DNA of 64,000 bases from contig JAAERX010000031.1 in assembly GCA_024229935.1 (NCBI GenBank), forward strand, positions 1 to 64,000. The letters are read 5' to 3'. Under the pieces are notes generated by a model, which was not told where the DNA came from, did not search any database, and was given only the letters and a program-made list of their open reading frames with translations. The stretch's first letter is position 1, and each line of letters opens with the position of its first letter. Below, in pieces: positions 15,026 to 63,831 of this stretch. This stretch comes from Gammaproteobacteria bacterium (GTDB taxonomy: Bacteria > Pseudomonadota > Gammaproteobacteria > Steroidobacterales > GCA-2729495). The position numbers and the translations under genes are program-made.

Positions 15026-16234
15026 ATGTATATCAACTTTTGGTACCCGGTTGTTCGTAGTGAAGATCTAAGCTATGACCAGCCGGAAAAAGTCAGGTTA
15101 CTTGGCGTCGATCTCGTTGCATTTCGTGACCAGAACGGTGAAGCGAGAGTATTAAGTGACACCTGCACGCACCGAGGTGCATCATTAGGTGGAGCCTGGT
15201 CTCAGGGCGAGCACAGACCACGAATCATTGATGGCTGTATCGTCTGCCCATATCACGGCTGGGAATTCAACGGTGACGGTGAATGCGTCAACCTCCCCTC
15301 ACTTGGTTACGGTAACAAGGCTCCTGCACGTGCAAAGGTCGACTCATACCCTGTTCAGGAAAAATACGGCATCGTATTTGCATTCCTGGGTGATGAGCCT
15401 GAAGAAACACGGATTCCACTTCTCGATGTTGAGGAATTCAATCAGGAAGGCTGGACAGCCAACGAAATACTGGTTCTTGAAGTGCCTTACTTCTACGAAC
15501 GTTCAATTGAAAACGGTATTGACCCATCCCACAACGAGTTCGTCCACCCAACACATGGTCATTCATCTATAGACCGCGAGACCTATAGCGTTCCGGACTA
15601 TACGCCTGAAGATCACCGTCAGGGTTGGGGCTTCTGGTTCTGGGCGCAGTTTGATTCTCCACCACTACCACAGAAAGACCACCATACAGCCGGTGGTCAG
15701 GATACACCTTGGGGTGATGTGAAGACTGTAGATCATATGAAAGTGTTTGTTGGCGGTGGTACCTATGGCCCGAACATTATGCCGACCTACATCAACATCA
15801 CAGAAGATAAGATGTTCCGTCAGTATTTCTTTGAAGCGCCTGTGGATGAGCACAACACAAAGATATTCTTCCTGAACATGCGTAACTTCCTGCTGGATCC
15901 GAAGCACAATGGTCCTATCCACGCACGTAATAAAGTTATTGCAGGACAGGACATCCAGATTCTGTCCACCATGTGTCCAGAACAAACACCCTTAAAACCA
16001 ACTGATGAGGTTCTGGTTCCATCTGACAATGCAGTTGCAGCTTATCGTGGCTGGCTGGAGAAGTTTGATGACAAGGGCTGGCGTATCGATACTGTAGCCT
16101 TCAACGCCCGTCATGGTAAGGATAAGGCATTTGCCATTCCTTCCCCTGCGCGCAGAACATCCAAAAACTGGGTACTGGATGAAATTCCTCTGCTCAAGGA
16201 TCGTGCTGATCGCAAAGAGAAGAACGAGGTTTGA
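15026..16234 (+). CDS. Rieske non-heme iron oxygenase, alpha-subunit type (copy 1)
   Basis: This 402-residue oxygenase should take electrons from a separate ferredoxin/reductase and oxidise an organic substrate with O2. The N-terminal Rieske domain binds [2Fe-2S] through Cys47, His49, Cys74 and His77 (CTH and CPYH). The mononuclear iron site is NGIDPSHNEFVH, with Asp166, His169 and His174, the D-x2-H-x4-H layout of the PaO/CAO/vanillate demethylase group. His49 and Cys74 are 24 residues apart instead of the usual 16-18. A paralogue at 62656 shares this. No ferredoxin or reductase gene adjoins. A strong ribosome site (AAGAGGA) precedes it and a textbook terminator follows, so it is transcribed alone. 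The substrate is unknown. Confidence 0.88.
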   Translation: MYINFWYPVVRSEDLSYDQPEKVRLLGVDLVAFRDQNGEARVLSDTCTHRGASLGGAWSQGEHRPRIIDGCIVCPYHGWEFNGDGECVNLPSLGYGNKAPARAKVDSYPVQEKYGIVFAFLGDEPEETRIPLLDVEEFNQEGWTANEILVLEVPYFYERSIENGIDPSHNEFVHPTHGHSSIDRETYSVPDYTPEDHRQGWGFWFWAQFDSPPLPQKDHHTAGGQDTPWGDVKTVDHMKVFVGGGTYGPNIMPTYINITEDKMFRQYFFEAPVDEHNTKIFFLNMRNFLLDPKHNGPIHARNKVIAGQDIQILSTMCPEQTPLKPTDEVLVPSDNAVAAYRGWLEKFDDKGWRIDTVAFNARHGKDKAFAIPSPARRTSKNWVLDEIPLLKDRADRKEKNEV

Positions 16235-18097: not shown

Positions 18098-19429
18098 ATG
18101 GAAACCGCCAGACTCAGCACCCACCAGAAAGCTTTATCAATAAACCTGAATGACCGCATCTACGGCACTTTAGCTGAGATCGGTGCAGCTCAGGAGGTCG
18201 CTCGCTGGCTATTTCGCGTGGGTGGGGCTGCCGGCAGCATTGCCAAGACCATGTCTGCCTATGACATGACGGTCAGTGATGAGATCTACGGTAAATCCGG
18301 ACGGTATGTATCCCGTGAACGCCTAGAGGCAATGCTGGATAAAGAATACAACCTGTTGATCCAACGCCTTAGTAAAGAACGCAAAGGCACACGTTTTTTT
18401 GCCTTTGCCAATACCATTACTGCCCGTAGTTATGAGGGCACAAATGAATGTCATGGCTGGGTGGGTCTGCGTTTCCAGGATGAGCCAGGCGGCGAACCTA
18501 ATACCATTATTTTGCATGTAAACCTGTTAGAAGAAACAACCGTCCAGCAACAGGAAGCTATAGGCATACTCGGCGTCAACCTTTTATACAGCGCAATGCT
18601 CAATCCTCAGGGTCCGTTAAGGGGGCTTGATAATCTATCTGATAACCTAAACCAAGGTGAGCTGGAAGTTGATGTAGCCAATTTATCAGGCCTAGTCTTT
18701 GCTGATACTGACCCAGCCCGTATTGGTCTGGCCATGATCCGCAGCGGTCTGGCCCAGGTTATTCTGTTTGGACGTGATGGCAACCAGCTACCGCCTACGG
18801 AAATTGTCCACAAGCGACCCATGGTTATAAAACGGACATCGACACGCTATTCCACTGTTATTGATTCAGCTACATTTGCTGCCGCTGGTGATCACCTGAA
18901 AAATGAAACACCCAATCTGGACGTTAAGCCACTCAGTATCACTGAGTTCAGCATCAACAGTGTGCATGCCTCTCAAGGCAGCGATATCGATACCAATCTG
19001 GAACATCTACGAGAACTTATCGCTCAGGATGAATGGGTAATGCTTACCAGGCTGCGACAAAGTTATAAACTAACAGATTATTTACGTCGTTACTCTCACC
19101 AACCTATACGCTTTGTTATGGGAATCTCTACTTTTGCCATGCTGTTATCAGACAAGTTCTATGTAGACTCAACAGGCGGCATTTTGGAAGCCACAGGTAA
19201 ACTGTACGCCGATGAGGTACGCATCTACATACAATCAATGTCCGAGGGGGATTTTCGCCAGCACCTTGACTCCGTAGGGTTGGCACCTGACTGGGTGACA
19301 GTCAATGCTGAAAATAGCAATGACCTGGCATCCATCCATAACCTAGAATTTCAGGGCCCTACCCGGTTGCTGCATCGATATCTCATGGAAGCGGGCTGGG
19401 TTGAAGAGCTAACCTCGCTTACTCAATAG
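18098..19429 (+). CDS. Conserved-looking protein of unknown function
   Basis: This 443-residue soluble protein has well-distributed codon use and no signal peptide or membrane segment. I do not recognise the family. Visible features are an N-terminal block (NDRIYGTLAEIGAAQEVARWLFRVGGAAGSIAKTMSAYD, in pieces), which looks like a glycine-rich nucleotide- or cofactor-binding segment. Then come TRFFAFANTITARSY and GWVGLRFQ, and a C-terminal half with DKFYVDSTGGILEATGKLYAD. Composition and the long uninterrupted frame make it a real gene. It is monocistronic. I assign no function. Confidence 0.7.
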   Translation: METARLSTHQKALSINLNDRIYGTLAEIGAAQEVARWLFRVGGAAGSIAKTMSAYDMTVSDEIYGKSGRYVSRERLEAMLDKEYNLLIQRLSKERKGTRFFAFANTITARSYEGTNECHGWVGLRFQDEPGGEPNTIILHVNLLEETTVQQQEAIGILGVNLLYSAMLNPQGPLRGLDNLSDNLNQGELEVDVANLSGLVFADTDPARIGLAMIRSGLAQVILFGRDGNQLPPTEIVHKRPMVIKRTSTRYSTVIDSATFAAAGDHLKNETPNLDVKPLSITEFSINSVHASQGSDIDTNLEHLRELIAQDEWVMLTRLRQSYKLTDYLRRYSHQPIRFVMGISTFAMLLSDKFYVDSTGGILEATGKLYADEVRIYIQSMSEGDFRQHLDSVGLAPDWVTVNAENSNDLASIHNLEFQGPTRLLHRYLMEAGWVEELTSLTQ

Positions 19430-21554: not shown

Positions 21555-22310
21555 ATGCCAATACCATCAGGCCGAAAAAGGCATCTTTTTGCAATGCTGC
21601 ATCGTTATGGCGGCATTAGTTCAGCATTACTTGTTATTGTGATATGCACAACAGGCTTACTACTGAACCATACTGATGATCTTAATCTAAGTAAGCAAAC
21701 AGTGGGCAATGAATGGCTGCTTGACTGGTATGGCATCAAGACACCTTCAACAGTCAGCTACATATCAGGGAGCCATTATGCAAGTCAGCTAAACGAAAGT
21801 ATTTATTTTGATGGTGTACCTGTAGAAGGAAGCTATACCCATCTACAGGGATTAGCTGTAAGTGATAACGGAGTTATTATTGCCACTACAAATCAGCTAA
21901 TTATATTAACACCAGAAGCTGCACTCATTGAGGTACTTGATGCCCGACATGGGATCCCTGAAGGTATCGAGAATTTTGGATTACTGCCCAGTGGGGCGTT
22001 TGTACTTAATGCCAAAAATACAATATGGATTGCCGATAATGATTTACTTGAATGGGTAAAAACGAACAACCCTATAGATAAGAGTAGCTGGTCAACTCAT
22101 GCAGCATTACCCTCATCCATACTGAATAGAATCAATCAAAATTATCATGGCAGCGGCCTGTCAACAGAGAGAATTCTGCTGGATTTACATTCCGGTCGTA
22201 TTTTTGGTCGGGCTGGCCCGTGGCTAGCTGATGCAGTAGCAATACTGTTCATTATATTAGCTGCAACAGGCACATGGATGTGGTTTAAATCACATCACAA
22301 GACTGGCTGA
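21555..22310 (+). CDS. PepSY-associated membrane protein
   Basis: From the ATG at 21555 the protein has 251 residues. One hydrophobic helix lies near residues 20-37 (GISSALLVIVICTTGLLLNH) and a second at the C-terminus (WLADAVAILFIILAATGTWMWF), with a periplasmic domain between. Helix one, with its preceding LHRYGG, matches the PepSY_TM pattern, where His residues may coordinate heme or a quinone site. The upstream open frame from 21306 overlaps the FMN-binding gene and is not the true start. It is the third gene of the Fur-controlled operon and converges on the RCCR-like gene. Confidence 0.7.
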   Translation: MPIPSGRKRHLFAMLHRYGGISSALLVIVICTTGLLLNHTDDLNLSKQTVGNEWLLDWYGIKTPSTVSYISGSHYASQLNESIYFDGVPVEGSYTHLQGLAVSDNGVIIATTNQLIILTPEAALIEVLDARHGIPEGIENFGLLPSGAFVLNAKNTIWIADNDLLEWVKTNNPIDKSSWSTHAALPSSILNRINQNYHGSGLSTERILLDLHSGRIFGRAGPWLADAVAILFIILAATGTWMWFKSHHKTG

Positions 22311-22332
22311 CATCTTTGTTCCTGACATTGGC

Positions 22333-23055
22333 CTACACCATCATTGCTGCTTCAATAGAACAAACAGCTTCCTCACCATAAACCTTAACAATCATGTCAC
22401 GGTCCGGGTCCATCTCTACAATTGTGCGTGCAATATGTTCACGCCTCAGTTGTCTTTCTTCGGCTTCTCGTGCACCTAACAGTTCTGCCGCATGATAGAT
22501 ATTCAACCATACATCAAAATATTGATTAGCAATCTCTTCAAGGATTGTCAGGTTTTTGGGAGCAACATCAGGCGCATTTAAAAAATAGGGAGAACAAAAA
22601 GCGCGCATATGTGTGTACCGGGAAGGCTGAAAAGTAATTTCTGACTTCCTAGCCTTATCGTATATCGACGTCACTCCACTACACAGCTCCTTAAACTTAT
22701 GTATATCCATAATGACATCAATATCAGGATACAAATCCATAGATATCTTACTGCCATGAGAGGTAACCATACCCTCAAAGTTAAAGCGTGGAATATTGTA
22801 TTGCGCCTGTGGAATAATATGAATATTAAAGTAACGCCCACCAGGCATTACATTAATTGACATACATGCCGCTTTATCAAGTTTTTCAGCCTTAAATACA
22901 TGCACATAGCCCGTGCTTTCACCGGCAGGGTTCTTTACATCTTCCAATTCAGGAAATTGATCAGAGGGCGTTGCCCCAAGCTCACTAATAATGCGCTCTT
23001 CTATGGATTGACCAAAACCGGCCAGTAATTTTGGACCGACGGACCCATTGCTCAT
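22333..23055 (-). CDS. Ferredoxin-dependent bilin reductase superfamily protein, RCCR-like
   Basis: This 240-residue soluble protein shows the pattern of red chlorophyll catabolite reductase and its bilin-reductase relatives. IHIIPQAQYNIPRFNFEG resembles the core strand that leads to the catalytic acid (Glu94 here; plant RCCR has PHF-x2-EF with an essential Glu). ISMDLYPDIDV at 105-114 fits the D-L-x-P segment. MRAFCSPYF (150-158) fits RSAFSPTAV, and ILEEIANQYFDVW fits the following helix. Plant RCCR reduces the C20/C1 double bond of red chlorophyll catabolite with ferredoxin electrons; other members reduce biliverdin. GAGGAAG gives it a strong ribosome site. It is the second gene of an operon after the MFS carrier, 31 bases downstream. 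The substrate here is not known, and the assignment is by eye. Confidence 0.6.
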   Translation of the reverse strand: MSNGSVGPKLLAGFGQSIEERIISELGATPSDQFPELEDVKNPAGESTGYVHVFKAEKLDKAACMSINVMPGGRYFNIHIIPQAQYNIPRFNFEGMVTSHGSKISMDLYPDIDVIMDIHKFKELCSGVTSIYDKARKSEITFQPSRYTHMRAFCSPYFLNAPDVAPKNLTILEEIANQYFDVWLNIYHAAELLGAREAEERQLRREHIARTIVEMDPDRDMIVKVYGEEAVCSIEAAMMV

Positions 23056-23086
23056 ACTTACTTCCTCAAAATCATATTTTTATACG

Positions 23087-24409
23087 CTAAGCATAATCTT
23101 TACGCGGTTGTGTTGCGCGTGCGACACCTATGGAAAAAAAACACAGCAAACTATTGACAATGCCAATGAGTATAAAAGGCGCCAAAGGTGATACGGCATC
23201 AAAAGCCCAACCACCCACACTGGAAATAAAGAGTATTCCTGCTGCACCAAACATAGAGAACATACCCACTACAGACCCCCGGTACGATGGTGGAGACTCC
23301 TGCCCTATTAAGGTCTGACTGGCCAAAACCACACTAATCTGGCCTATACCCAGCACAACCATGGCCGGATACATCCAAACTCCAAAGGGGTCAGGCACAA
23401 ATGCGATACCGATATACCCCACTGCTGCAAGACCCATGGCCAAACCCATAGCATGGGCACGGTCCATATGATCATTCAACCAGCCCATAACAGGCGCCCA
23501 TAAAAGTGCCGCAAACATAACCATGGCAAAACGTATACCTGCCTTAGTTGCCGCAACCTCAGGTGACATACCCGACTGTATACCTGCCTGGATAAGCCAT
23601 AAGGTATAAAAGGTACCTATTACAACAAGATCGCCACGCGCGACAAATGCACAAAAATACGCCAACAATACCCGCTTATTTTCCCGCCCTGCCCGTATAC
23701 CCATACCCACACGTTGCCTGAATGGCTCATTTTTTTGCGCCTTCTCAGGACGGCCTCCCTTGAGGCCTGCACGAACAACCAAGGCCAGCAGCAGGCACAA
23801 ACCTGCCATGGTAAACATGGTTAACTGACCAGCTGTGAGCGCATCAGTTCCATCTGCTGAATATATTTCCGGCAATCGTAAGAAAATAATACCAATCAGC
23901 ATATTACCTATACCTATAGCAATACCCGCCAGTGCCACAAGCTTGCCACGTGATTCCTCTGCCGGATAATCAACCATTAACACTCCAACCATGACGTTAA
24001 CGACGGCAATACCAACAGATATAAACATACGTACAGCAACCAAAGCCACCACAGTATCTACGTAAGCAAATAAGACATAGCCAAGTGCCAATAACAAAGC
24101 ACCACCAAGAAATACACCACGTCGTCCTATACGATCAGAAAATGCACCAATAAAAGCACTACTGACAAGCAGTACAATCTCACCTGCAAATAATGCCAGA
24201 CCACTCACCTGCCCCTGCTGATCATTTGGCAGGCCAAGATTAACTGCCAGCACATAGGGCTGAATCGTACTTATATAAGTAGTAAGACATACACCAAGTA
24301 ATGCAGACATCACAAAGAACAGAGCATTTGCCGGGCGAATACCTCTGGCAAGCTTGATAGGGCCTAAACTGTGTGGTCCACCTGTCATTTCATTCATTCC
24401 CTTAACCAT
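23087..24409 (-). CDS. MFS transporter (operon with the RCCR-like gene)
   Basis: This is a 12-helix major facilitator of about 440 residues. The loop 2-3 motif reads GAFSDRIGRRGVFLGGALL, and a second half-copy appears as GWLNDHMDRAHAMGLAMGL. The end is lysine/arginine-rich. It resembles drug or metabolite exporters and small-molecule uptake carriers; direction cannot be told. A clear paralogue is encoded at 55494-56846 (shared VNLGxP near helix 1, LxGQExxPxxRG, SPLAPF-like end). The start is uncertain, as ATGs exist at codons 1, 5 and 8. Since it is the first gene of the pair, it likely moves the substrate or product of the RCCR-like protein. Confidence 0.82.
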   Translation of the reverse strand: MVKGMNEMTGGPHSLGPIKLARGIRPANALFFVMSALLGVCLTTYISTIQPYVLAVNLGLPNDQQGQVSGLALFAGEIVLLVSSAFIGAFSDRIGRRGVFLGGALLLALGYVLFAYVDTVVALVAVRMFISVGIAVVNVMVGVLMVDYPAEESRGKLVALAGIAIGIGNMLIGIIFLRLPEIYSADGTDALTAGQLTMFTMAGLCLLLALVVRAGLKGGRPEKAQKNEPFRQRVGMGIRAGRENKRVLLAYFCAFVARGDLVVIGTFYTLWLIQAGIQSGMSPEVAATKAGIRFAMVMFAALLWAPVMGWLNDHMDRAHAMGLAMGLAAVGYIGIAFVPDPFGVWMYPAMVVLGIGQISVVLASQTLIGQESPPSYRGSVVGMFSMFGAAGILFISSVGGWAFDAVSPLAPFILIGIVNSLLCFFSIGVARATQPRKDYA

Positions 24410-24601
24410 GCATCAATAGGAATACCCGAAAGGTATCTGATCTGACCGCACAACCAAGTCAAGTACATATAAAACCCTGCTCAGGCACAAGCAGGTATAT
24501 CATTTATAGCAGTGACCACATCGCATATCCAGCAGTCGATTGTCTGCAGCTATGAGGCTACCATTGCTTAATTCTAGATACCTCAACCGTGAGTTCTTTA
24601 T

Positions 24602-25282
24602 ATGTCTGCAACCGATCTTAACCCTGACAAACTGCTAACCACCACTCGTGCTGTACGTAAGCGACTTAATTTAAAAAAACCTGTGCCCATAGCAGTTGTG
24701 CATGAATGCATCGAAATTGCCCTACAGGCACCAACGGGTGGCAATACACAAAGCTGGCAGTTCATGATCGTGACAGATGCCTCTCTGCGCACACAACTGG
24801 CTGATCTGTATCGCACAGCATGGGACAAATATCGTGGTGCACCTGGTTCTATCTATGACCTTGCCACTAAAGAAAATGAGCCACAGCGCAAACAACAACA
24901 CCAGCGTGTAATCAGTTCAGCTGAGCATCTGGTCGAGCATTTACAAGAAGTTCCCGTACACATTATTCCCTGCATGAAAGGGCGCAATGATCAAATGACA
25001 GGTAGTTATGCCAATGCAATACACTCTGCCAGCTATGGATCCATTATTCCAGCCACTTGGAGCTATATGCTAGCTGCACGCTCACGAGGTCTGGGTACCG
25101 CATGGACAACCGCACACCTAATTTATGAACAAGCCGCAGCAGAGTTGCTGGGCATTCCGTACGACCAATACACTCAGGTTGCCCTGATTCCAACAGCCTG
25201 GTACACAGGTAAACTATTCCATGCTTCACTTCGCCGTAACGTAGCCGATGTTGTGCATGAGAATAACTGGCACAGCACATGA
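24602..25282 (+). CDS. Nitroreductase-family flavoprotein
   Basis: This 226-residue FMN enzyme of the nitroreductase fold should use NAD(P)H. The N-terminal RAVRKRLN segment binds the FMN phosphate, APTGGNTQSWQF is the usual flavin-contacting stretch, and GLGTAWTT lies near the second flavin contact. The family reduces nitro groups, quinones, enones or acts in flavin chemistry; the exact substrate is open. It is divergent from the MFS/RCCR-like operon. Its stop overlaps the next start by four bases (ATGA), so it is translationally coupled to the TPR-oxygenase. Confidence 0.82.
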   Translation: MSATDLNPDKLLTTTRAVRKRLNLKKPVPIAVVHECIEIALQAPTGGNTQSWQFMIVTDASLRTQLADLYRTAWDKYRGAPGSIYDLATKENEPQRKQQHQRVISSAEHLVEHLQEVPVHIIPCMKGRNDQMTGSYANAIHSASYGSIIPATWSYMLAARSRGLGTAWTTAHLIYEQAAAELLGIPYDQYTQVALIPTAWYTGKLFHASLRRNVADVVHENNWHST

Positions 25283-26808
25283 GTACCGATCCTGAAACAT
25301 ATCTGCAACAAGCAATGCAGGAGCACCAACAAGGCAACCTTTATGATGCAGACCTGCTCTATGCACAAGCATTACAAATAAATCCTAACAATATTCAGGC
25401 ATTGCGGCTCAAAGGCATACTAAAGCGCGAATATGGTGATATTGATGAGTCCTTAAAACTCTTCACACAAGCAAGTAAGCTTAACCCTAAGGATGCAGAG
25501 CACATAAATGAAATTGCCCTATCACATATGGCAGCCGGAAATTTGCAGCAGGCAGAACAAAGCCTACGACATGCACTACACACAGACCCAGAATCAATAA
25601 AAGCACTAACCAATCTCGGTGCATTACTGCAGCAACGTGGCCATATTCAGGAAGCCATACATCTCTATCAGATGGCTTTGGAAATTCAACCAGATGATGT
25701 ACAGCTACGCTGTAATTATGCCAAAACACTAAGTGATGCGGGTGAAGATGAACAAGCCTTGCAGCAATGTGAAACAGCTTTGAAACAAAGTAGTGACCAC
25801 CCTTATGTTCTAACGGTTAAAGGCGCCGTACTTCTTGACCAGAAATGCTATGAAGAGGCAGGCAGCATTCTCGAAACAGCCAGATTACAGGGCTATGAAG
25901 AAGATATGGCACTGGTCAATCTAGCTCTTGCCCTTTATCAGACCGGTGATATTAAGTCTGCAACAAAAATTCTACAGCGAGCCATTACATTAAACCCATA
26001 CAATGCCCGAGCTGTAGCTGATCTAACAAACTGTCACTGCACCACAGGCAATTATGCAGACGCACTTACTTTATGTGAAGAATTCCTTAAGCAGCATCCT
26101 GGTGAACGACTGGTCCTTGGCGCATATGCACTGGCACTCCATAATGCGGGCCAATCTGAGCAGGCACTGACACTAAGCAACTGCACCAAGCTTGTTCATG
26201 TGTTTGATCTTGATACACCAAAAGGCTTTGCTGATCTCAATGTATTCAATAATGCATTAGCATCGCAAATACGCTCAGACAGCTCTTTACTAACAAATCC
26301 AGTCAGCAAATCAACATATGGTGGCGATCAGACAGGCGAACTGGATATGGAAGCATCATTAGCCAGTAAAGCCCTGCTGACTTTTATCCAGGACAGCGTA
26401 ACCTCCGTAGCCAATCAATTCATGGCATCAGGACTTGATAAACACCCCGTAATGGCGCCCGCTAACGGAACACAAATGATTCGAGCATGGGGCACTCTAA
26501 TTCGGGCAGGCGGGCAACAAACTGCACATATGCATCCACTCGGATGGCTAAGTGGCGTCTACTATGCCCATTTACCACCTGATATGGGTGCAGCATCTGC
26601 TGAAGCTGGCTGGCTGGAATTCAATAAACCACCGGAACGGTTCTATTGCGAAGCAGAACCAGACACCCGGCGTTATGAGCCGCGTGAAGGAAGACTAATC
26701 ATCTTCCCCTCTTGGTTCTGGCATCAGACATTTCCTTTTGAATCTAAAGATGAACGTATCAGCATTGCCTTTGATATTGTTCCACTGGAGGCACTAAGGA
26801 TGATATGA
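25279..26808 (+). CDS. TPR protein with C-terminal 2OG-Fe(II) oxygenase-like domain
   Basis: The protein has 509 residues in two parts. Residues 1-300 are consecutive tetratricopeptide repeats (for example ALQINPNNIQALRLKGIL, ALEIQPDDVQLRCNYAKTL). Residues 310-509 form a putative 2-oxoglutarate/iron oxygenase (2OG-FeII_Oxy_5 type). HMHPLGWLSGVYY carries the first metal His, FPSWFWHQTFPF the distal His, and ERISIAFDI the 2OG-binding Arg. Proteins of this architecture may hydroxylate protein or peptide partners held by the repeats; that is inference. It starts within the stop of the nitroreductase gene and converges on the LLM gene 8 bases away. Confidence 0.82.
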   Translation: MSTDPETYLQQAMQEHQQGNLYDADLLYAQALQINPNNIQALRLKGILKREYGDIDESLKLFTQASKLNPKDAEHINEIALSHMAAGNLQQAEQSLRHALHTDPESIKALTNLGALLQQRGHIQEAIHLYQMALEIQPDDVQLRCNYAKTLSDAGEDEQALQQCETALKQSSDHPYVLTVKGAVLLDQKCYEEAGSILETARLQGYEEDMALVNLALALYQTGDIKSATKILQRAITLNPYNARAVADLTNCHCTTGNYADALTLCEEFLKQHPGERLVLGAYALALHNAGQSEQALTLSNCTKLVHVFDLDTPKGFADLNVFNNALASQIRSDSSLLTNPVSKSTYGGDQTGELDMEASLASKALLTFIQDSVTSVANQFMASGLDKHPVMAPANGTQMIRAWGTLIRAGGQQTAHMHPLGWLSGVYYAHLPPDMGAASAEAGWLEFNKPPERFYCEAEPDTRRYEPREGRLIIFPSWFWHQTFPFESKDERISIAFDIVPLEALRMI

Positions 26809-26815
26809 GATCAAA

Positions 26816-27838
26816 TTAACGCAATGCAGGAACCACTCTTTCACCAATAATTTTAAGTGCATCCATTGGCTGACCATGCAGCCTTAATGCCACCTCAGTT
26901 AAGCCACCTGCAGCAAATAACTTGTACCGCTCAATTTCACGATCCACATCTTCCAGCCCACCGGTCGAGGTCAACCCTTCAGCTAACTTAGCAGATATCT
27001 CAAAAGGAATATTCTCAATCTTCTTAGATGAGTCAAAATAAGCATCAACATATTCCTGATAATTATCTCTTACAATTTTCACTTCTTCCTCATTGAGGTA
27101 CATGCTGATCATCTCAGGATCAAGCAAACGTGCACGCCAAGGCAGCTCACGAATTGATTCAGCAAAGGCAGCATCACGATCCTCTTTAATATGCCAGCCC
27201 CAGAAGGTATTTACACGGAAGTCTTCTGGCTGCTCTTCGCGTCGACTCAGACCTGTGCGGACTGCTTCCATTGCAGGCTCTACAACTTCTGGTGGTGTAC
27301 AACCAATATAACAACCATCGGCAACACGACCTTCCATACGCATCATCATCGGACGATATGCCGTACCGTATATTTTTGGCGGTGTTGCTTTGACCCATGG
27401 ATAGGCACAAGGCAGGTTCACATTGAATATTTCTCCATCATAACCACCAGCTAACTGACCGTGTGCAGCACCACGTACTATTTCAATGGCCTCACGAATT
27501 GCCAGTACAATCTTCTGAGGCTTCTTCAGTGCCATTGCTTCAAGGTTACCTTCACCTGCACCCATTGCCAGAACAGTACGCCCACCTGACATCTCATTAA
27601 GTGTCAGTAAAGCATTGGCAATTTTCAGTGGATGCATTTCAAATGGGCTAACAGCCAGCGGACCCATCAGAATTTTCTTAGTCGACAACGCAAGTGGCGC
27701 AAGACTCAAAAAGCCATCCCAGTGAGCAAAATAATTAGATGTCCAGATAGCACGAATGCCATATTCCTCTGCCTTCTGGCCAATTTCGGTAATCTGATCC
27801 GGCGTCAGGTCCGGCTCCAGTATTAAATCAATATCCAC
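26816..27838 (-). CDS. Luciferase-like (LLM) flavin-dependent oxidoreductase
   Basis: This 340-residue TIM-barrel enzyme belongs to the bacterial luciferase / F420-dependent group. Typical stretches are IRAIWTSNYFAHWD, KKILMGPLAVSPFEMHPLKIAN, LNEMSGGRTVLAMGAGEGNLEAM (phosphate-binding loop of FMN or F420), and GLTEVALRLHGQP at the C-terminus. Members oxidise or reduce small organic molecules. Whether it uses FMN or F420 cannot be read off; F420 is less usual in this bacterial group. The start is GTG at 27838, with GGAG eight bases upstream. It is monocistronic. Confidence 0.8.
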   Translation of the reverse strand: MDIDLILEPDLTPDQITEIGQKAEEYGIRAIWTSNYFAHWDGFLSLAPLALSTKKILMGPLAVSPFEMHPLKIANALLTLNEMSGGRTVLAMGAGEGNLEAMALKKPQKIVLAIREAIEIVRGAAHGQLAGGYDGEIFNVNLPCAYPWVKATPPKIYGTAYRPMMMRMEGRVADGCYIGCTPPEVVEPAMEAVRTGLSRREEQPEDFRVNTFWGWHIKEDRDAAFAESIRELPWRARLLDPEMISMYLNEEEVKIVRDNYQEYVDAYFDSSKKIENIPFEISAKLAEGLTSTGGLEDVDREIERYKLFAAGGLTEVALRLHGQPMDALKIIGERVVPALR

Positions 27839-28243: not shown

Positions 28244-30700
28244 ATGATGAAGGTCTCAAAGACCAGCAAACCATTAGTCAGGCCCACACCTGTACGACTA
28301 ACATCCGTTACAGCTCTAGTCGCAATGATTCTAAGCAACTTTTTTGGAGTTAGCCTTGCGGCTGATGATGCCAAACCAGAAGAAACTAGTGGCGCTTCAA
28401 AAGGAACAGATGAAATAGTTGTTACTGCAACCCGTCGAGACACCTCTATCCAGGAAGTTCCTTACAACCTGTCTGCTATAAGTGAAAAAGAAATTGAACA
28501 CTTGCAGATATATGATTTATCAGATGTTGCTCGCTGGACCCCAGGATTGATTGAGGTTGATCAAGGCGCACGTAATGCAAACCTTCTGATCATGCGTGGG
28601 TTAAATTCAAGCGCTATTAATGCACCAGAATTACTACGCAACTCTCAGGGTGACCTGGTGGGCACCTACTACGGCGAAACACCAGTCTATATTGACATGA
28701 ACCCCATTGATATTAACCGTATAGAAATTTTACGTGGGCCACAGGGTACTCTGTATGGGGCTCGGTCACTTGGTGGAACCGTAAAATATATACCAAACCT
28801 ACCTGATACCAGTGAGTTTACAATCAATGCCAATGGTCGTTCATACGGCATGTCAGAAAGTGATGATCTTGGTTATAACGGCAGCCTTATTATTAATGCA
28901 CCCCTGATAGAAGACACGCTGGCACTTAGAGCCATGCTTGGTTACCTGTATACACCTGGATTTATAGATCAGGACTACCTGGTAAATGACCCCGGTGTCT
29001 CCTGCCCTGAACCTTTTTTCTCTGACCCTGACTGCACACCAGATGACCTGCACGCCGAGAAAGATACAAATGATGATACAACCAAATCAGCAGGCCTTGC
29101 CCTTTTATGGAACATTACAGAATCAATTGATGCCACACTAAGCTGGCGGTTTCAGGATCAGGAAGTTGGCGGCCGCCAGATTAATACTGTTGATAGCATG
29201 GCTGTTATTGATTCAGACCCCGTCACTCCCGGTGTACAACCACTACAAACGGGCAATTATGATAATGGTTTACGTTTTCTGGAAAAAAATGACCGTACGA
29301 ACAATATCTATAACCTAACATTTAATATTGATACAGATATAGCAGAACTGGTCTCAACAACCTCTTATACAACTTATGATGATAGTGGCAATCGGGACCA
29401 GACTGATTTACTGCTATTGTTTGGCTTTGGTGATCCTTTTCCTGCCTTCTCCTCATACACAAAGGACCATACGGACGATAAAATTTTTACTCAGGAACTC
29501 CGCATGGTCTCAACCATGTCCGACAGTCGATGGGACTGGATTGTTGGCGGTTTCTATCAATCAGCTAACCTTGATCAAAGCAGCACAGAATACGCACCTA
29601 ATCACCCCTGGTCACTAACAACTGATGATAGCGTAACGTATATAAGCGCCAGCAAAGACACAGATGAGTACGCTTTCTTTGGCGAACTTGGCTATCAGAT
29701 TACAGACAAATGGCATGTACTGGGTGGTGCACGTTGGTTTGATTTTGACGACTCTATGGAGAGTTGCTTCTGGGATAAATCATGGGACCTCATTCAGCCA
29801 CCCTGTGAATCTGGTGATGGGGATGACTCAGATACACTATTCAAACTAAATACAGATTATGCTTTTACTGACAATATGCTTGGCTATGCACTATTTTCTC
29901 AAGGGGTGGGTACTAGTGGCGTTAACGTAGGCCCAACAATTCTCCCCAGAGATCGCTTCATTAAACCTTCCTCAATTGATAATTATGAAGTTGGTGTACG
30001 CAGTTCATGGCTTGATGACAGACTAACCATTAATTACTCAGTCTACTATGCAGACTGGAAAAACCTACAGCTCGAAGCAACCAGCCCTGATTTTCTCGCT
30101 ATTACAAAAAATGGTGGCTCTGCAGAAACCAAGGGCATTGAACTGGAAACCCGATTAATACTTAATGAGCACTGGTCATTTGGGCTTGGCTATGCCTATA
30201 CCAATGCCGAACTATCAGACAGCTGTATCAATATTGTTGACTGGGATGATCCAACTCTTACCTGCCCCATTTATGGCGTCGAAACCGAAGATGGAGATCG
30301 TTTACCCGGTTCCCCCGAGCATCAGGGTAACTTTGTCGTAACCTACAATACTGACTTGGATAATAGCCTCGGACTAATGGCTTCTTATCAAATGACCACC
30401 CAAAGTGATGTATTAACCAAACTGGGTGACGGTGATGACTGCTGTCGTGACTTTGGTGAATCACTTGCAGGCTTTACAATTCATTCGGCATCTTTGGGCC
30501 TGTCAGGTGACACATGGGATGCAACCTTGTTTGCTGACAACATGTTCAACAAGTATGCAGAAACAGGTGTACGTAATGACACCAGTTTTATAGGAACTGA
30601 TGACGGCACTAATAATTTTGCCCTACGCCGTTATTTCATAAACGTAATTACACCACGCACAATAGGTATTGATTTTCGCTATCGCTTTCGGGGCGATTAA
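28244..30700 (+). CDS. TonB-dependent outer-membrane receptor
   Basis: This 818-residue receptor has a signal sequence ending near SLAADD, followed by a linker and the TonB box DEIVVTATRR. The plug domain follows (VPYNLSAISEKEIEHLQ, RIEILRGPQGTLYGARSLGGTVKYI). A 22-strand barrel then runs to the C-terminal RYRFRGD. The barrel is rich in Asp and carries paired Cys residues (SCPEPFFSDPDC, DDCCRDF) that may form disulphides in extracellular loops. It belongs to the large group common in marine gammaproteobacteria for complex organics, rather than a recognisable siderophore type. The ligand is unknown. Confidence 0.9.
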   Translation: MMKVSKTSKPLVRPTPVRLTSVTALVAMILSNFFGVSLAADDAKPEETSGASKGTDEIVVTATRRDTSIQEVPYNLSAISEKEIEHLQIYDLSDVARWTPGLIEVDQGARNANLLIMRGLNSSAINAPELLRNSQGDLVGTYYGETPVYIDMNPIDINRIEILRGPQGTLYGARSLGGTVKYIPNLPDTSEFTINANGRSYGMSESDDLGYNGSLIINAPLIEDTLALRAMLGYLYTPGFIDQDYLVNDPGVSCPEPFFSDPDCTPDDLHAEKDTNDDTTKSAGLALLWNITESIDATLSWRFQDQEVGGRQINTVDSMAVIDSDPVTPGVQPLQTGNYDNGLRFLEKNDRTNNIYNLTFNIDTDIAELVSTTSYTTYDDSGNRDQTDLLLLFGFGDPFPAFSSYTKDHTDDKIFTQELRMVSTMSDSRWDWIVGGFYQSANLDQSSTEYAPNHPWSLTTDDSVTYISASKDTDEYAFFGELGYQITDKWHVLGGARWFDFDDSMESCFWDKSWDLIQPPCESGDGDDSDTLFKLNTDYAFTDNMLGYALFSQGVGTSGVNVGPTILPRDRFIKPSSIDNYEVGVRSSWLDDRLTINYSVYYADWKNLQLEATSPDFLAITKNGGSAETKGIELETRLILNEHWSFGLGYAYTNAELSDSCINIVDWDDPTLTCPIYGVETEDGDRLPGSPEHQGNFVVTYNTDLDNSLGLMASYQMTTQSDVLTKLGDGDDCCRDFGESLAGFTIHSASLGLSGDTWDATLFADNMFNKYAETGVRNDTSFIGTDDGTNNFALRRYFINVITPRTIGIDFRYRFRGD

Positions 30701-55493: not shown

Positions 55494-56846
55494 TCACTCT
55501 GACAAGTTCAGTGACTTCCCAGGTGCTTTAATACGCACAAAAACAGCAAAAAGAAACACAGCTGCCTGAAATGCACCAATCATTACAAACGGTGCTGATG
55601 GGTCTATACGGTCAAACAATATGCCTCCCAGAAGACTGGCAACCAGAATACCCACTGCGCCAAACCAGCCATTGGTAGCAATAACTGTTCCTCGTTCCTC
55701 AGGAGAGGCTTCCTGACCGACCAGGGTCACCGAAGCAATAATCGCACTACCCTGCCCAATTGCCAGAATAATAAAAAACGGTAATGCTGAATTATCCAGC
55801 GGGGAAGAGATCAGTCCCATTGATGCATAGCCTATAGAAGCTAATAACATGGCCAGACCCATACCTGTGACCCGATTAAGTTTATCAAGTATAAAACCAA
55901 AAATCGGAGTCCATATAAGAGTAACCGCCCCCATAAGCCCCATAAGTTTGCCCGCCTGCCCCATTGCCTGAGGTACGGCAATACCAGCATCCGGGGCAAC
56001 CTGTAAGATCCACATAGAGACAAACAACCCTTTGATCGCATTATCAGAACGACCGGCAAAAGCTGCCAGGTAAGACAACACAATACGTGGATTACGTGCT
56101 GCACGTATACCACCCATCAGCATCATCTTTAAGGGTAGGCGCTCAGCTTCATCTACATCCTGAGGCACCCCACCCTTAAGGCCAAAACGAAAAACTACAA
56201 TAGAAATAAAACAAAGCAGGGCCGCGGCCATAAACATACCGGTACCGGCTTGCTGTTCAGTAAACCCGCGTGATGACAGCAGCATGGGAATCTGCGCAAG
56301 AACAGCACTCATGAAAATAACACCCAGGCCATTCATAAACCCACTGAAGCCAAATAAACGACCACGGGATTTCTCCTGCGCATAGTCATTACCGACTGTG
56401 GGGATCATGGCAGAAAGAGCTGCTGCACCAATGGCAAAGATGACCCGGTAAATAATCAATTCATTCAGCGTGGTTGCAAAAGGGAACAGTCCATAACCAA
56501 GGCCGCACAAAAAGATTCCGGCAATCATCACCTGCTGCCGCCCTACACGGTCAGCCAGAACACCAAAGGGAATAATTAACAGGATGGCGACAATTTCTGT
56601 AGCAGTGGCGAGAATACCGGTAGCAAAACCCTGCTCACCTTTAGGGATACCGAGATTCACTTCAAGCAGATAGGCCTGCAGAAAGTTCATACCAGCCAGC
56701 ATGGCAATGCATATGAAGGCGGCATACATAAAGGACCAGAAATTGAATTTACGTATGCCTGGCTGCAATACCACCGGACCTACCGCCTGAATATCATCTC
56801 TCATATTTCTGCTAACCGCTGAAATCAGTTGCTCACCATAACTCAT
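55494..56846 (-). CDS. MFS transporter, paralogue of the one at 23087
   Basis: This 450-residue, 12-helix facilitator has the loop motif GVLADRVGRQQVMIAG. Shared features with the 23087 protein include VNLGIPKGEQG near helix 1, SRGRLFGFSG, LVGQEASPEERG and SAPFVMIGAFQ at the end. It is not an exact copy, so the duplication is old. Direction and substrate are unknown. It leads a minus-strand operon with the interrupted SHOCT gene four bases later. A downstream ATG at codon 15 is an alternative start. Confidence 0.85.
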   Translation of the reverse strand: MSYGEQLISAVSRNMRDDIQAVGPVVLQPGIRKFNFWSFMYAAFICIAMLAGMNFLQAYLLEVNLGIPKGEQGFATGILATATEIVAILLIIPFGVLADRVGRQQVMIAGIFLCGLGYGLFPFATTLNELIIYRVIFAIGAAALSAMIPTVGNDYAQEKSRGRLFGFSGFMNGLGVIFMSAVLAQIPMLLSSRGFTEQQAGTGMFMAAALLCFISIVVFRFGLKGGVPQDVDEAERLPLKMMLMGGIRAARNPRIVLSYLAAFAGRSDNAIKGLFVSMWILQVAPDAGIAVPQAMGQAGKLMGLMGAVTLIWTPIFGFILDKLNRVTGMGLAMLLASIGYASMGLISSPLDNSALPFFIILAIGQGSAIIASVTLVGQEASPEERGTVIATNGWFGAVGILVASLLGGILFDRIDPSAPFVMIGAFQAAVFLFAVFVRIKAPGKSLNLSE

Positions 56847-62498: not shown

Positions 62499-62655
62499 AA
62501 GCATCTGACATCCTTACTCAACCGCTATAGTCTATTGTATTTAGTGTAATTTTTACGCTACGTACCATTACTTATAGATTCCAAAAGCAGCCAACCCGAG
62601 GATGTCTATTAGGGTTTTATCACCTGCATTGGGCTACAGTAAGAGAAAAATAAAG

Positions 62656-63831
62656 ATGTTTATAAATTTCTGGTACCCCATTATTCGCAGTGAAGACTTA
62701 TCTACCAAATCGCCAGAAAAGGTTATGGTCTTGGGCACTAACCTGGTGGCCTTCCGTAGCCAGGCAGGCCAGGCACACGTACTAAGCGATACCTGTGTAC
62801 ACCGTGGCGCCTCACTCGGTGGCCCCTGGTCTGCCGGTGAGCATACCCCCCGTATTGTTAACGACTGTATCGTATGCCCCTACCATGGCTGGGAATTTGA
62901 TGGTGAGGGTCACTGTCAGAATATTCCGTCTGTAGGCTATGGCAATAAAGTTAATGCCCGAGCCAAAGTGGATTCATACCCTGTACAGGAAAAATACGGC
63001 ATCATTTTTGCTTTTCTTGGTGATTTGCCAGCTGAAGAACGGCCACCATTACTCGACATTGAAGAATATGAACAAGAAGGCTGGCGTGCAAACCAGGTGC
63101 TGGTGCTTGATGTGGACTATTACTATGAGCGCTCAATAGAAAACGCGCTCGATCCTGCACACAATGAATTTGTTCATCCATCACACGGCTTTACTGCCAT
63201 AAATCGTGATACCTACCGTGTCAATGATTACAAAACCGAAGACAACCAACAGGGCTGGGGAATGTGGTTTATGCATAAATTTAATGCACCACCACTTAAC
63301 CCTAAAGTCTGGGAAGAAATACGTACAGAATCAGGTGCACTCTGGGCTGGTGGTGGAACCTACGGCCCAAATACTGTAATCACCCATATTAATATTCAGC
63401 CCACCGCTGGTTTCCGCCAATACTTCTTTGAACAACCCATCAGCGAAAATAAGACCCGCATTTTCTTCCTGAACATGCGCAACATAATGCTTAATACAAA
63501 ACATGATGGCCCCATCCATGCACGTAATAAAGCCATTGCCAAACAGGATATTGATATCCTGGAAGCATTGCATCCAACCCTAACGCCTATCAGCAACACT
63601 AAAGAAGTATTGATGCCAGCCGATAAGGCCGTTATTGCCTACCGAAAATGGCTCAACAAGTTTGATGAAGCCGGCTGGCGAATCAATCTTAAGGAATTTC
63701 GTCGCATCCATGGCAAGGACAAAGCTTTTGCAATCCCATGTCCGGCACGAAAAAATTCAAAAAACTGGGTAATAGAAGCCATACCACTAGTAAAGAAACG
63801 TACTAGAAACAAGCTATCCAAAGCCAGCTAA
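62656..63831 (+). CDS. Rieske non-heme iron oxygenase, alpha-subunit type (copy 2)
   Basis: This is a paralogue of the gene at 15026, of 391 residues from the ATG at 62656; the upstream 18 codons from 62602 have no counterpart in copy 1. The ligand positions are identical: Cys47, His49, Cys74, His77 for the [2Fe-2S] cluster and Asp166, His169, His174 for iron (ENALDPAHNEFVH). The same GGxWSxGEHxPRI insert lengthens the Rieske loop. The largest difference lies around residues 205-230, the region between the iron motif and YGPN, a likely substrate-specificity segment. No redox partner gene is adjacent. It is 225 bases from the exporter operon, probably its own transcript. Confidence 0.87.
   Translation: MFINFWYPIIRSEDLSTKSPEKVMVLGTNLVAFRSQAGQAHVLSDTCVHRGASLGGPWSAGEHTPRIVNDCIVCPYHGWEFDGEGHCQNIPSVGYGNKVNARAKVDSYPVQEKYGIIFAFLGDLPAEERPPLLDIEEYEQEGWRANQVLVLDVDYYYERSIENALDPAHNEFVHPSHGFTAINRDTYRVNDYKTEDNQQGWGMWFMHKFNAPPLNPKVWEEIRTESGALWAGGGTYGPNTVITHINIQPTAGFRQYFFEQPISENKTRIFFLNMRNIMLNTKHDGPIHARNKAIAKQDIDILEALHPTLTPISNTKEVLMPADKAVIAYRKWLNKFDEAGWRINLKEFRRIHGKDKAFAIPCPARKNSKNWVIEAIPLVKKRTRNKLSKAS

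Follow-up and report, generated by a model that had tools for sequence, protein, structure and literature searches.

The 64-kb window examined here (64,000 nucleotides of contig JAAERX010000031.1, from a gammaproteobacterium of the GTDB lineage Steroidobacterales; GCA-2729495) carries a pair of genes on its minus strand: the first encodes a major facilitator superfamily (MFS) transporter of 440 residues (23087–24409) and the second, after a 31-bp gap, a 240-residue protein (22333–23055) of the superfamily that comprises the ferredoxin-dependent bilin reductases (FDBRs) and red chlorophyll catabolite reductase (RCCR). Both open reading frames (ORFs) lie where an earlier note, made from the sequence alone, had described them. 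The transporter matches PF07690 at E 6.1e-46; its best NCBIfam model is MamH, a magnetosome MFS transporter, whose cut-off of 300 bits it misses at 184.3 bits, and it is here termed MamH-like. A ribosome-binding-site-like GAGGAAG (23061–23067, minus strand; judged by eye) stands 5 nt ahead of the reductase ATG, the second of the pair. Because the downstream gene is convergent and the upstream gene divergent, the pair forms an isolated possible operon. A signal scan of 22200–24700 returned three promoter-like sites (shuffle mean 5.4) and seven terminator-like sites (shuffle mean 2.6, mostly within both genes); neither result was used.

The window reductase and its orthologues form a family, A1, that is recognizable by sequence. 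The window protein passes the Pfam Fe_bilin_red model (PF05996; E 4.2e-9, 36.8 bits, cut-off 31), and all 14 members of alignment A5 (14 rows, the window protein with sequences of related loci) match it at E <= 0.1. The picture is less clean in whole genomes, where a PF05996 search placed five of the 14 known A1 genes above cut-off, three below it (24.7–26.5 bits, in G011, G023 and G026) and left six unlisted, which makes A1 a distant member by this model. RCC_reductase (PF06405) is not listed for the window protein at E <= 1, with 3 of the 14 A5 members matching at E <= 0.1 (best 1.8e-4). An A1 profile built from 14 proteins recovers GtPEBB from the PDB at E 1.9e-5 and tomato HY2 at E 0.0089, the third match being at chance level; neither an RCCR chain nor a coproporphyrinogen oxidase (HemF) is found at E <= 10.

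An AlphaFold2 model of A1, derived from A5 (pLDDT 90.9, pTM 0.89), adopts the α/β/α sandwich typical of FDBRs. Foldseek ranks GtPebB (1.3e-11), Arabidopsis RCCR (3.2e-11), HY2 (2.5e-10) and PcyA (8.6e-10) as its best matches. The leading VIA-align scores are nearly tied, at Z 24.1 for HY2, 23.9 for GtPebB, 23.8 for RCCR, 23.0 for PcyA and 22.9 for PebA, followed by an algal PcyA-like subunit of a motor complex (21.3), PebS (18.6), oxygen-dependent coproporphyrinogen III oxidase (HemF, 18.1) and PcyX (16.0); the first unrelated row stands at 4.4. HemF thus shares the overall fold at a score below the best FDBR and RCCR chains. PebB and HY2 (GtPEBB 6qwq/6qx6, tomato HY2 6kmd/6kme) are both the best PDB profile matches and the top structural matches, at 14–18% identity. 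Comparison with plant RCCR (2zxk/2zxl/3aga/3agb), which the earlier note had proposed as a check of the fold, aligns 231 residues at 2.6 Å, with no sign of a different fold. The resemblance to the FDBR/RCCR superfamily is therefore far above chance, in line with the assignment originally made.

Residue positions were compared in a superfamily alignment of 45 rows. Glu94 (codon 22774–22776, minus strand) aligns with Asp-99 of GtPEBB, Asp105 of PcyA and a plant RCCR glutamate, which we take to be Glu154 and whose role we likewise presume. Its column holds Asp in GtPEBB, PebA and four PcyA rows, Asn in HY2 and Glu in Arabidopsis RCCR. Asn77 (22825–22827, minus strand) aligns with His88 of PcyA and is Asn in PebA and GtPEBB, while Asp216 (22408–22410, minus strand) aligns with Asp-219 of GtPEBB in a column that is Asp in every group, except for two cyanophage PcyA rows (Thr). 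All three residues are invariant in 15/15 distinct orthologues, across two ortholog alignments, and the placing of Glu94 at the essential acid position, first proposed from the window protein alone, holds throughout the family. In GtPEBB, the Asp-99/Asp-219 carboxylate pair is reported as essential at both members (PMC6755814). A1 would thus possess an FDBR-type catalytic carboxylate pair, Glu94/Asp216, with Glu replacing Asp at the first site. Arg151 is common to A1, RCCR and the RCC_reductase paralogues described below, and Asp113 to these and HY2.

The RCCR-like order of segments noticed earlier is present in full in the window protein—PRFNFEG at 89–95 (including Glu94), DLYP at 107–110, RAFCSP at 151–156 and ILEE at 171–174—and neither ortholog alignment shows any variation at P89, R90, E94, G95, D107, R151, S155 or P156. 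ILEE is not conserved, however, and the proline of D-L-x-P is kept in 10/14 rows. Motif order alone was rejected as proof of RCCR membership, as Pfam names the protein Fe_bilin_red and a clearer RCC_reductase paralogue sits elsewhere in the genome.

The tandem recurs. In eight of the 15 A1 loci (the window, L017, L018, L019, L020, L024, L027 and L028) the reductase gene directly follows an MFS gene of the same strand. A ninth, L026, has a C-terminal MFS remnant directly upstream in two frames (L026:712-925), which is a broken or misassembled carrier; elsewhere the MFS gene lies one gene upstream (L093), convergent and touching (L021) or 3.3 kb downstream (L023). The tandem occurs in four kinds of gene surroundings, and since the flanking genes differ among four genera, the pair has been kept while its surroundings changed. 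Counting the one in the pair, the window genome encodes ten such MFS proteins, plus one weak match; with so few, repeated adjacency by chance is unlikely. The gene pair is real, conserved and in the main rightly described by the earlier note, including its tandem arrangement. Another of the ten MFS genes, from the same branch, lies at 55494–56846 of the window and adjoins none of the superfamily reductases found.

Matches occur in 15 of 99 related genomes, that of the window included. Fourteen of these hold A1 orthologues, all in one GTDB-level family; the match in the fifteenth genome, G028, is a member of a different FDBR branch, A4, as is a second one in G009. One extra orthologue, L093, comes from a named metagenome-assembled genome and brings the total to 15 distinct A1 proteins. 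A contig scan with the window protein alone gave nothing, and with the alignment gave 13 loci. Among 369 genomes drawn from the class, only G000 and G004 matched, plus a weak half-length match of unclear nature in G537; 398 genomes drawn from the phylum gave G000 only. With almost nothing further from these draws, A1 looks confined to one GTDB-level family and L093. A phage or plasmid origin was rejected: tblastn against plasmid and phage sequences found nothing at E <= 0.01, and viral contigs yielded no relative.

A1 is one of four superfamily branches seen in these genomes. The window genome has a second FDBR of family A3 (contig C73, 63.5 bits) and two RCC_reductase relatives, one above the PF06405 cut-off (C140, L071:8601-9413, plus strand, 45 bits) and one below it (C123, L072:6908-7732, plus strand, 22.1 bits). 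A PDB search with the RCC_reductase family, A2, leads directly to plant RCCR (E 2.1e-8). At the Glu94 position A2 has Ile (11/11), A3 Phe (8/8) and A4 Gln (4/4), so that A1 alone among the four branches seen here retains both acids. All four occur together in G009 and G016.

These data place A1 close to the division between RCCR and FDBRs. The tree sets A1 beside A2 and plant RCCR with support 98/87, with a program warning of long branches, and the alternative that groups A1 with FDBR references has a p-AU of 0.065 and is not rejected. Without A2, the RCCR-side placement receives 94/75, with a p-AU of 0.186 for A1 with PebA, PebB and HY2; without plant RCCR it receives 85/44. The trees left out the RCC_reductase loci L105, L111, L112 and L114 and were built without pre-PcyA sequences. 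Profile–profile comparison gives A1 against A2 a probability of 96.6 (E 7e-10), A1 against A4 96.3, A1 against A3 88.9 and A3 against A2 0.5. The evidence is two-way: Pfam and the PDB profile search point to the FDBRs, and the tree favours RCCR. The description 'RCCR-like' is accordingly borne out in part: the tree leans that way and Glu94 agrees with it, but Pfam (Fe_bilin_red, PF06405 unlisted) and the PDB profile search do not. We read A1 as a lineage new to a known superfamily of enzymes, separate and near the RCCR/FDBR split, on an uncertain side of it.

Features of the other branches were observed alongside. The C140-type RCC_reductase has response-regulator-like and kinase-like neighbours (named by reading) that recur in several genomes. 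A third FDBR branch (L081:8854-9786, plus; L084:2194-3105, minus; L031:9032-9925, plus) bears an extra C-terminal tail weakly like PCP_red (PF08369, a domain in subunit B of protochlorophyllide reductase; E 0.098 for L081), and its profile lists 2l09 (E 0.12) and 2kru (E 0.46) in the PDB. A second FDBR branch sits after a molybdopterin oxidoreductase gene (L085:5760-8603, plus; one protein scanned), in a cluster conserved in L085, L077 and L082.

Genome content bears on where a substrate might come from. The searches covered the A1-bearing genomes other than G030 and, for the reaction centre, other than G026. The photosynthetic reaction centre (PF00124) was found in 0/25 genomes of the family and in 3/40 overall, all of other families, which agrees with the earlier view of the host as an apparent heterotroph. 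Canonical heme oxygenase (PF01126) was found in 0/13 A1-bearing genomes and 2/45 overall, one above cut-off. The PaO domain (PF08417) was found in 0/45 genomes, 13 of them A1-bearing, and another ring-opening enzyme could serve instead; the control search matched 2 of 14 control genomes, one above cut-off. PF06405 was found at E <= 0.001 in 25/45 genomes (22 above cut-off), including 13/13 A1-bearing ones (10 above cut-off).

We lean towards a reading in which the pair consists of an FDBR/RCCR-superfamily reductase and an MFS carrier working with it on an acquired linear tetrapyrrole. The substrate class is suggested by the best structural matches, as HY2, GtPebB, RCCR, PcyA and PebA act on linear tetrapyrroles, and no reaction centre, PaO domain or canonical heme oxygenase was detected, which makes acquisition of the substrate likelier than its production by known routes. 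An open-chain tetrapyrrole would be bound in the pocket of the α/β/α sandwich, where Glu94 would protonate it, Asp216 may place a water or a proton and a ferredoxin-type donor would supply single electrons; the MFS protein would import the substrate or export the reduced product. Such a substrate could be a breakdown product of heme, phycobilin or chlorophyll from organic matter. On this footing A1, together with its carrier, probably serves to reduce a linear tetrapyrrole that is a pigment breakdown product acquired by the cell.

Several points weigh against this reading. Three of the 15 loci show no such MFS gene (L022 and L029, over several kb on each side, and L025, on a short contig), so the pairing is not obligatory. 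Support is weak (48/94) for the grouping of the 11 MFS proteins linked to A1 in a 21-protein tree; the comparison is with ten others, three of them from the same MFS branch and with the genome's remaining paralogues left out, and with so few same-branch comparators the value says little. Arg-215 of GtPEBB, on which A-ring reduction reportedly depends, has no counterpart in A1 (by eye). PF06405 relatives also occur in 10/15 family genomes without A1, and the co-occurrence (13/13 versus 10/15, Fisher p 0.04) is weak, as the test ignores relatedness and 3 of the 13 lie below the Pfam cut-off. The window genome is a draft of 189 contigs (99.5% complete by the tool's estimate), and other heme-degrading enzymes are possible despite the absence of PF01126. 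Fold, superfamily, conserved acids, the pair with its recurrence, and genome content were computed; from them we infer reductase activity, substrate class, electron donor, and the role and direction of transport.

One alternative is a bacterial RCCR proper, whose substrate, as in plants, would be the red chlorophyll catabolite that a Rieske oxygenase forms from pheophorbide. The RCCR side of the tree (98/87), a Glu at the RCCR Glu site (where FDBR references have Asp and HY2 Asn), Arg151 as in RCCR and Asp113 as in RCCR and HY2 are all consistent with it, but the tree placement weakens when either A2 or plant RCCR is removed and the A1 profile misses every RCCR chain in the PDB. The window does encode two Rieske oxygenases, yet both are VanA-type and lie 6 and 38 kb from the reductase, and with the PaO domain in 0/45 genomes a PaO-type Rieske partner in the window was rejected; we consider a plant-like RCCR improbable here. 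A role with porphyrinogens or cyclic tetrapyrroles as substrates, or as ligands bound without reduction (in a carrier, chaperone or sensor function), strikes us as unlikely, if slightly less so. The coproporphyrinogen oxidase score is comparable to that of PebS and above that of PcyX, and the lack of an acid at position 94 in A2, A3 and A4 means that non-canonical roles may exist in the superfamily; A1, however, keeps both acids in 15/15 proteins, and its best structure and sequence matches are HY2, PebB, RCCR and PcyA.

The remaining alternative, a pre-PcyA- or PcyA-like enzyme of bilin synthesis supplying the chromophore of a phytochrome or a bilin-binding globin, would have the identical fold. 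PMC10151467 describes active pre-PcyA FDBRs from non-photosynthetic bacteria, with FDBR homologues in heterotrophs and pre-1 in beta- and gammaproteobacteria, so that the earlier statement that bilin reductases are otherwise known from phototrophs is not supported. As given there, pre-1 and pre-3 clusters typically contain heme oxygenase, Fe–S, V4R and globin genes and the pre-2 cluster a B12-binding protein and a globin, whereas A1 has an MFS gene; heme oxygenase, Fe–S, V4R, globin and B12-binding proteins are not among the scanned A1 neighbours, most neighbours being unscanned and no search being aimed at V4R, globin or B12-binding proteins. The same text has pre-1 without the catalytic acid and pre-2 and pre-3 with Asp, in contrast to the Glu retained in A1. 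With heme oxygenase also in 0/13 A1-bearing genomes searched, a bilin-synthesis role seems to us quite unlikely.

A1 differs from each of the systems with which it can be compared. It is like GtPEBB at the Asn77 and Asp216 positions and unlike PebB and HY2 in Glu94 (Asp-99 in GtPEBB), in a host without a detected reaction centre and in its MFS neighbour. With plant RCCR it shares the fold, the Glu at the catalytic position, Arg151 and, in the best tree, its side, and differs in its Pfam family, in a profile that misses RCCR chains and in having no PaO partner found. The A2 paralogues accompany A1 in 13/13 A1-bearing genomes searched and match it in profile–profile comparison but, unlike A1, match plant RCCR directly and have Ile, no acid, at position 94. 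RCCR homologues are reported in some cyanobacteria (PMC2716323), Ca. Schekmanbacteria sequences fall in the RCCR outgroup (PMC10151467), RCCR–FDBR homology is detectable, as restated in a 2026 paper (PMC13193486), and PMC8219035 counts plant RCCR, which acts after PAO, among the ferredoxin-dependent bilin reductases. Nothing found in the open-licence literature describes a bilin reductase linked to an MFS gene, or proteins of RCCR type in such bacteria, and A1 members may sit in the trees of PMC10151467.

Chlorophyll is degraded every year in very large amounts and, to our knowledge, bacterial enzymes acting on its open-chain products are hardly known. We offer tentatively, and regard as rather doubtful, the wider proposal that the pair stands at the centre of a bacterial pathway that takes up linear tetrapyrroles of chlorophyll or heme origin (resembling phyllobilins or bilins) from decaying phototrophs and reduces them, working through a third FDBR/RCCR lineage near the split, in bacteria that lack detected photosynthesis and have up to four branches. 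The chlorophyll-catabolite reading can be put to the test. A non-photosynthetic-looking gammaproteobacterium with a two-acid bilin-reductase relative, a carrier and RCC_reductase relatives is a concrete candidate, inexpensive to test, for a bacterial step on chlorophyll products and suggests that such bacteria deal with pigment breakdown products; the apparent position of A1 near the RCCR/FDBR split bears on the origins of plant chlorophyll breakdown and of bilin synthesis.

Three genes follow the pair on its upstream side. A nitroreductase-family gene (24602–25282, plus strand; PF00881), divergent from the pair and of uncertain pathway role, adjoins it also in one other genome (L017). Next come a tetratricopeptide-repeat (TPR) protein with a putative 2-oxoglutarate (2OG)-Fe(II) oxygenase domain (25279–26808, plus; PF13759) and an LLM-class (luciferase-like) oxidoreductase (26816–27838, minus; PF00296). 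TPR/2OG relatives lie near A1 in four more genomes of the genus and, in G022, of another genus, directly beside the RCC_reductase paralogue. LLM genes occur close to superfamily members at many loci, but LLM oxidoreductases as a general partner were rejected, as the tree holds several separate LLM branches (four label changes) and the genome 13 LLM proteins. One clade of six LLM orthologues is a possible link, found near A1 in five genomes of one genus (the window's included) and near the RCC_reductase paralogue in G022; as five of the six come from one genus, the cases are not independent. That A1 and the RCC_reductase paralogue have TPR/2OG and LLM neighbours in common hints at one shared pathway for two superfamily branches, from two independent cases.

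Further out, a TonB-dependent-receptor-like protein (28244–30700, plus strand), named by reading its sequence without a family scan, has related ORFs near A1 in L017, L023 and L029. The two VanA-type Rieske oxygenases of the window lie at 15026–16234 and 62602–63831. A 443-residue protein at 18098–19429, with no Pfam match at E <= 1, is related to proteins encoded close to the reductase in L023 and L029. In two loci an NAD(P)-binding protein gene adjoins the reductase (L093:8182-8850, minus, PF13460; L021:10202-10921, minus), PF13460 being, we presume, the family type that includes biliverdin-IXβ reductase.

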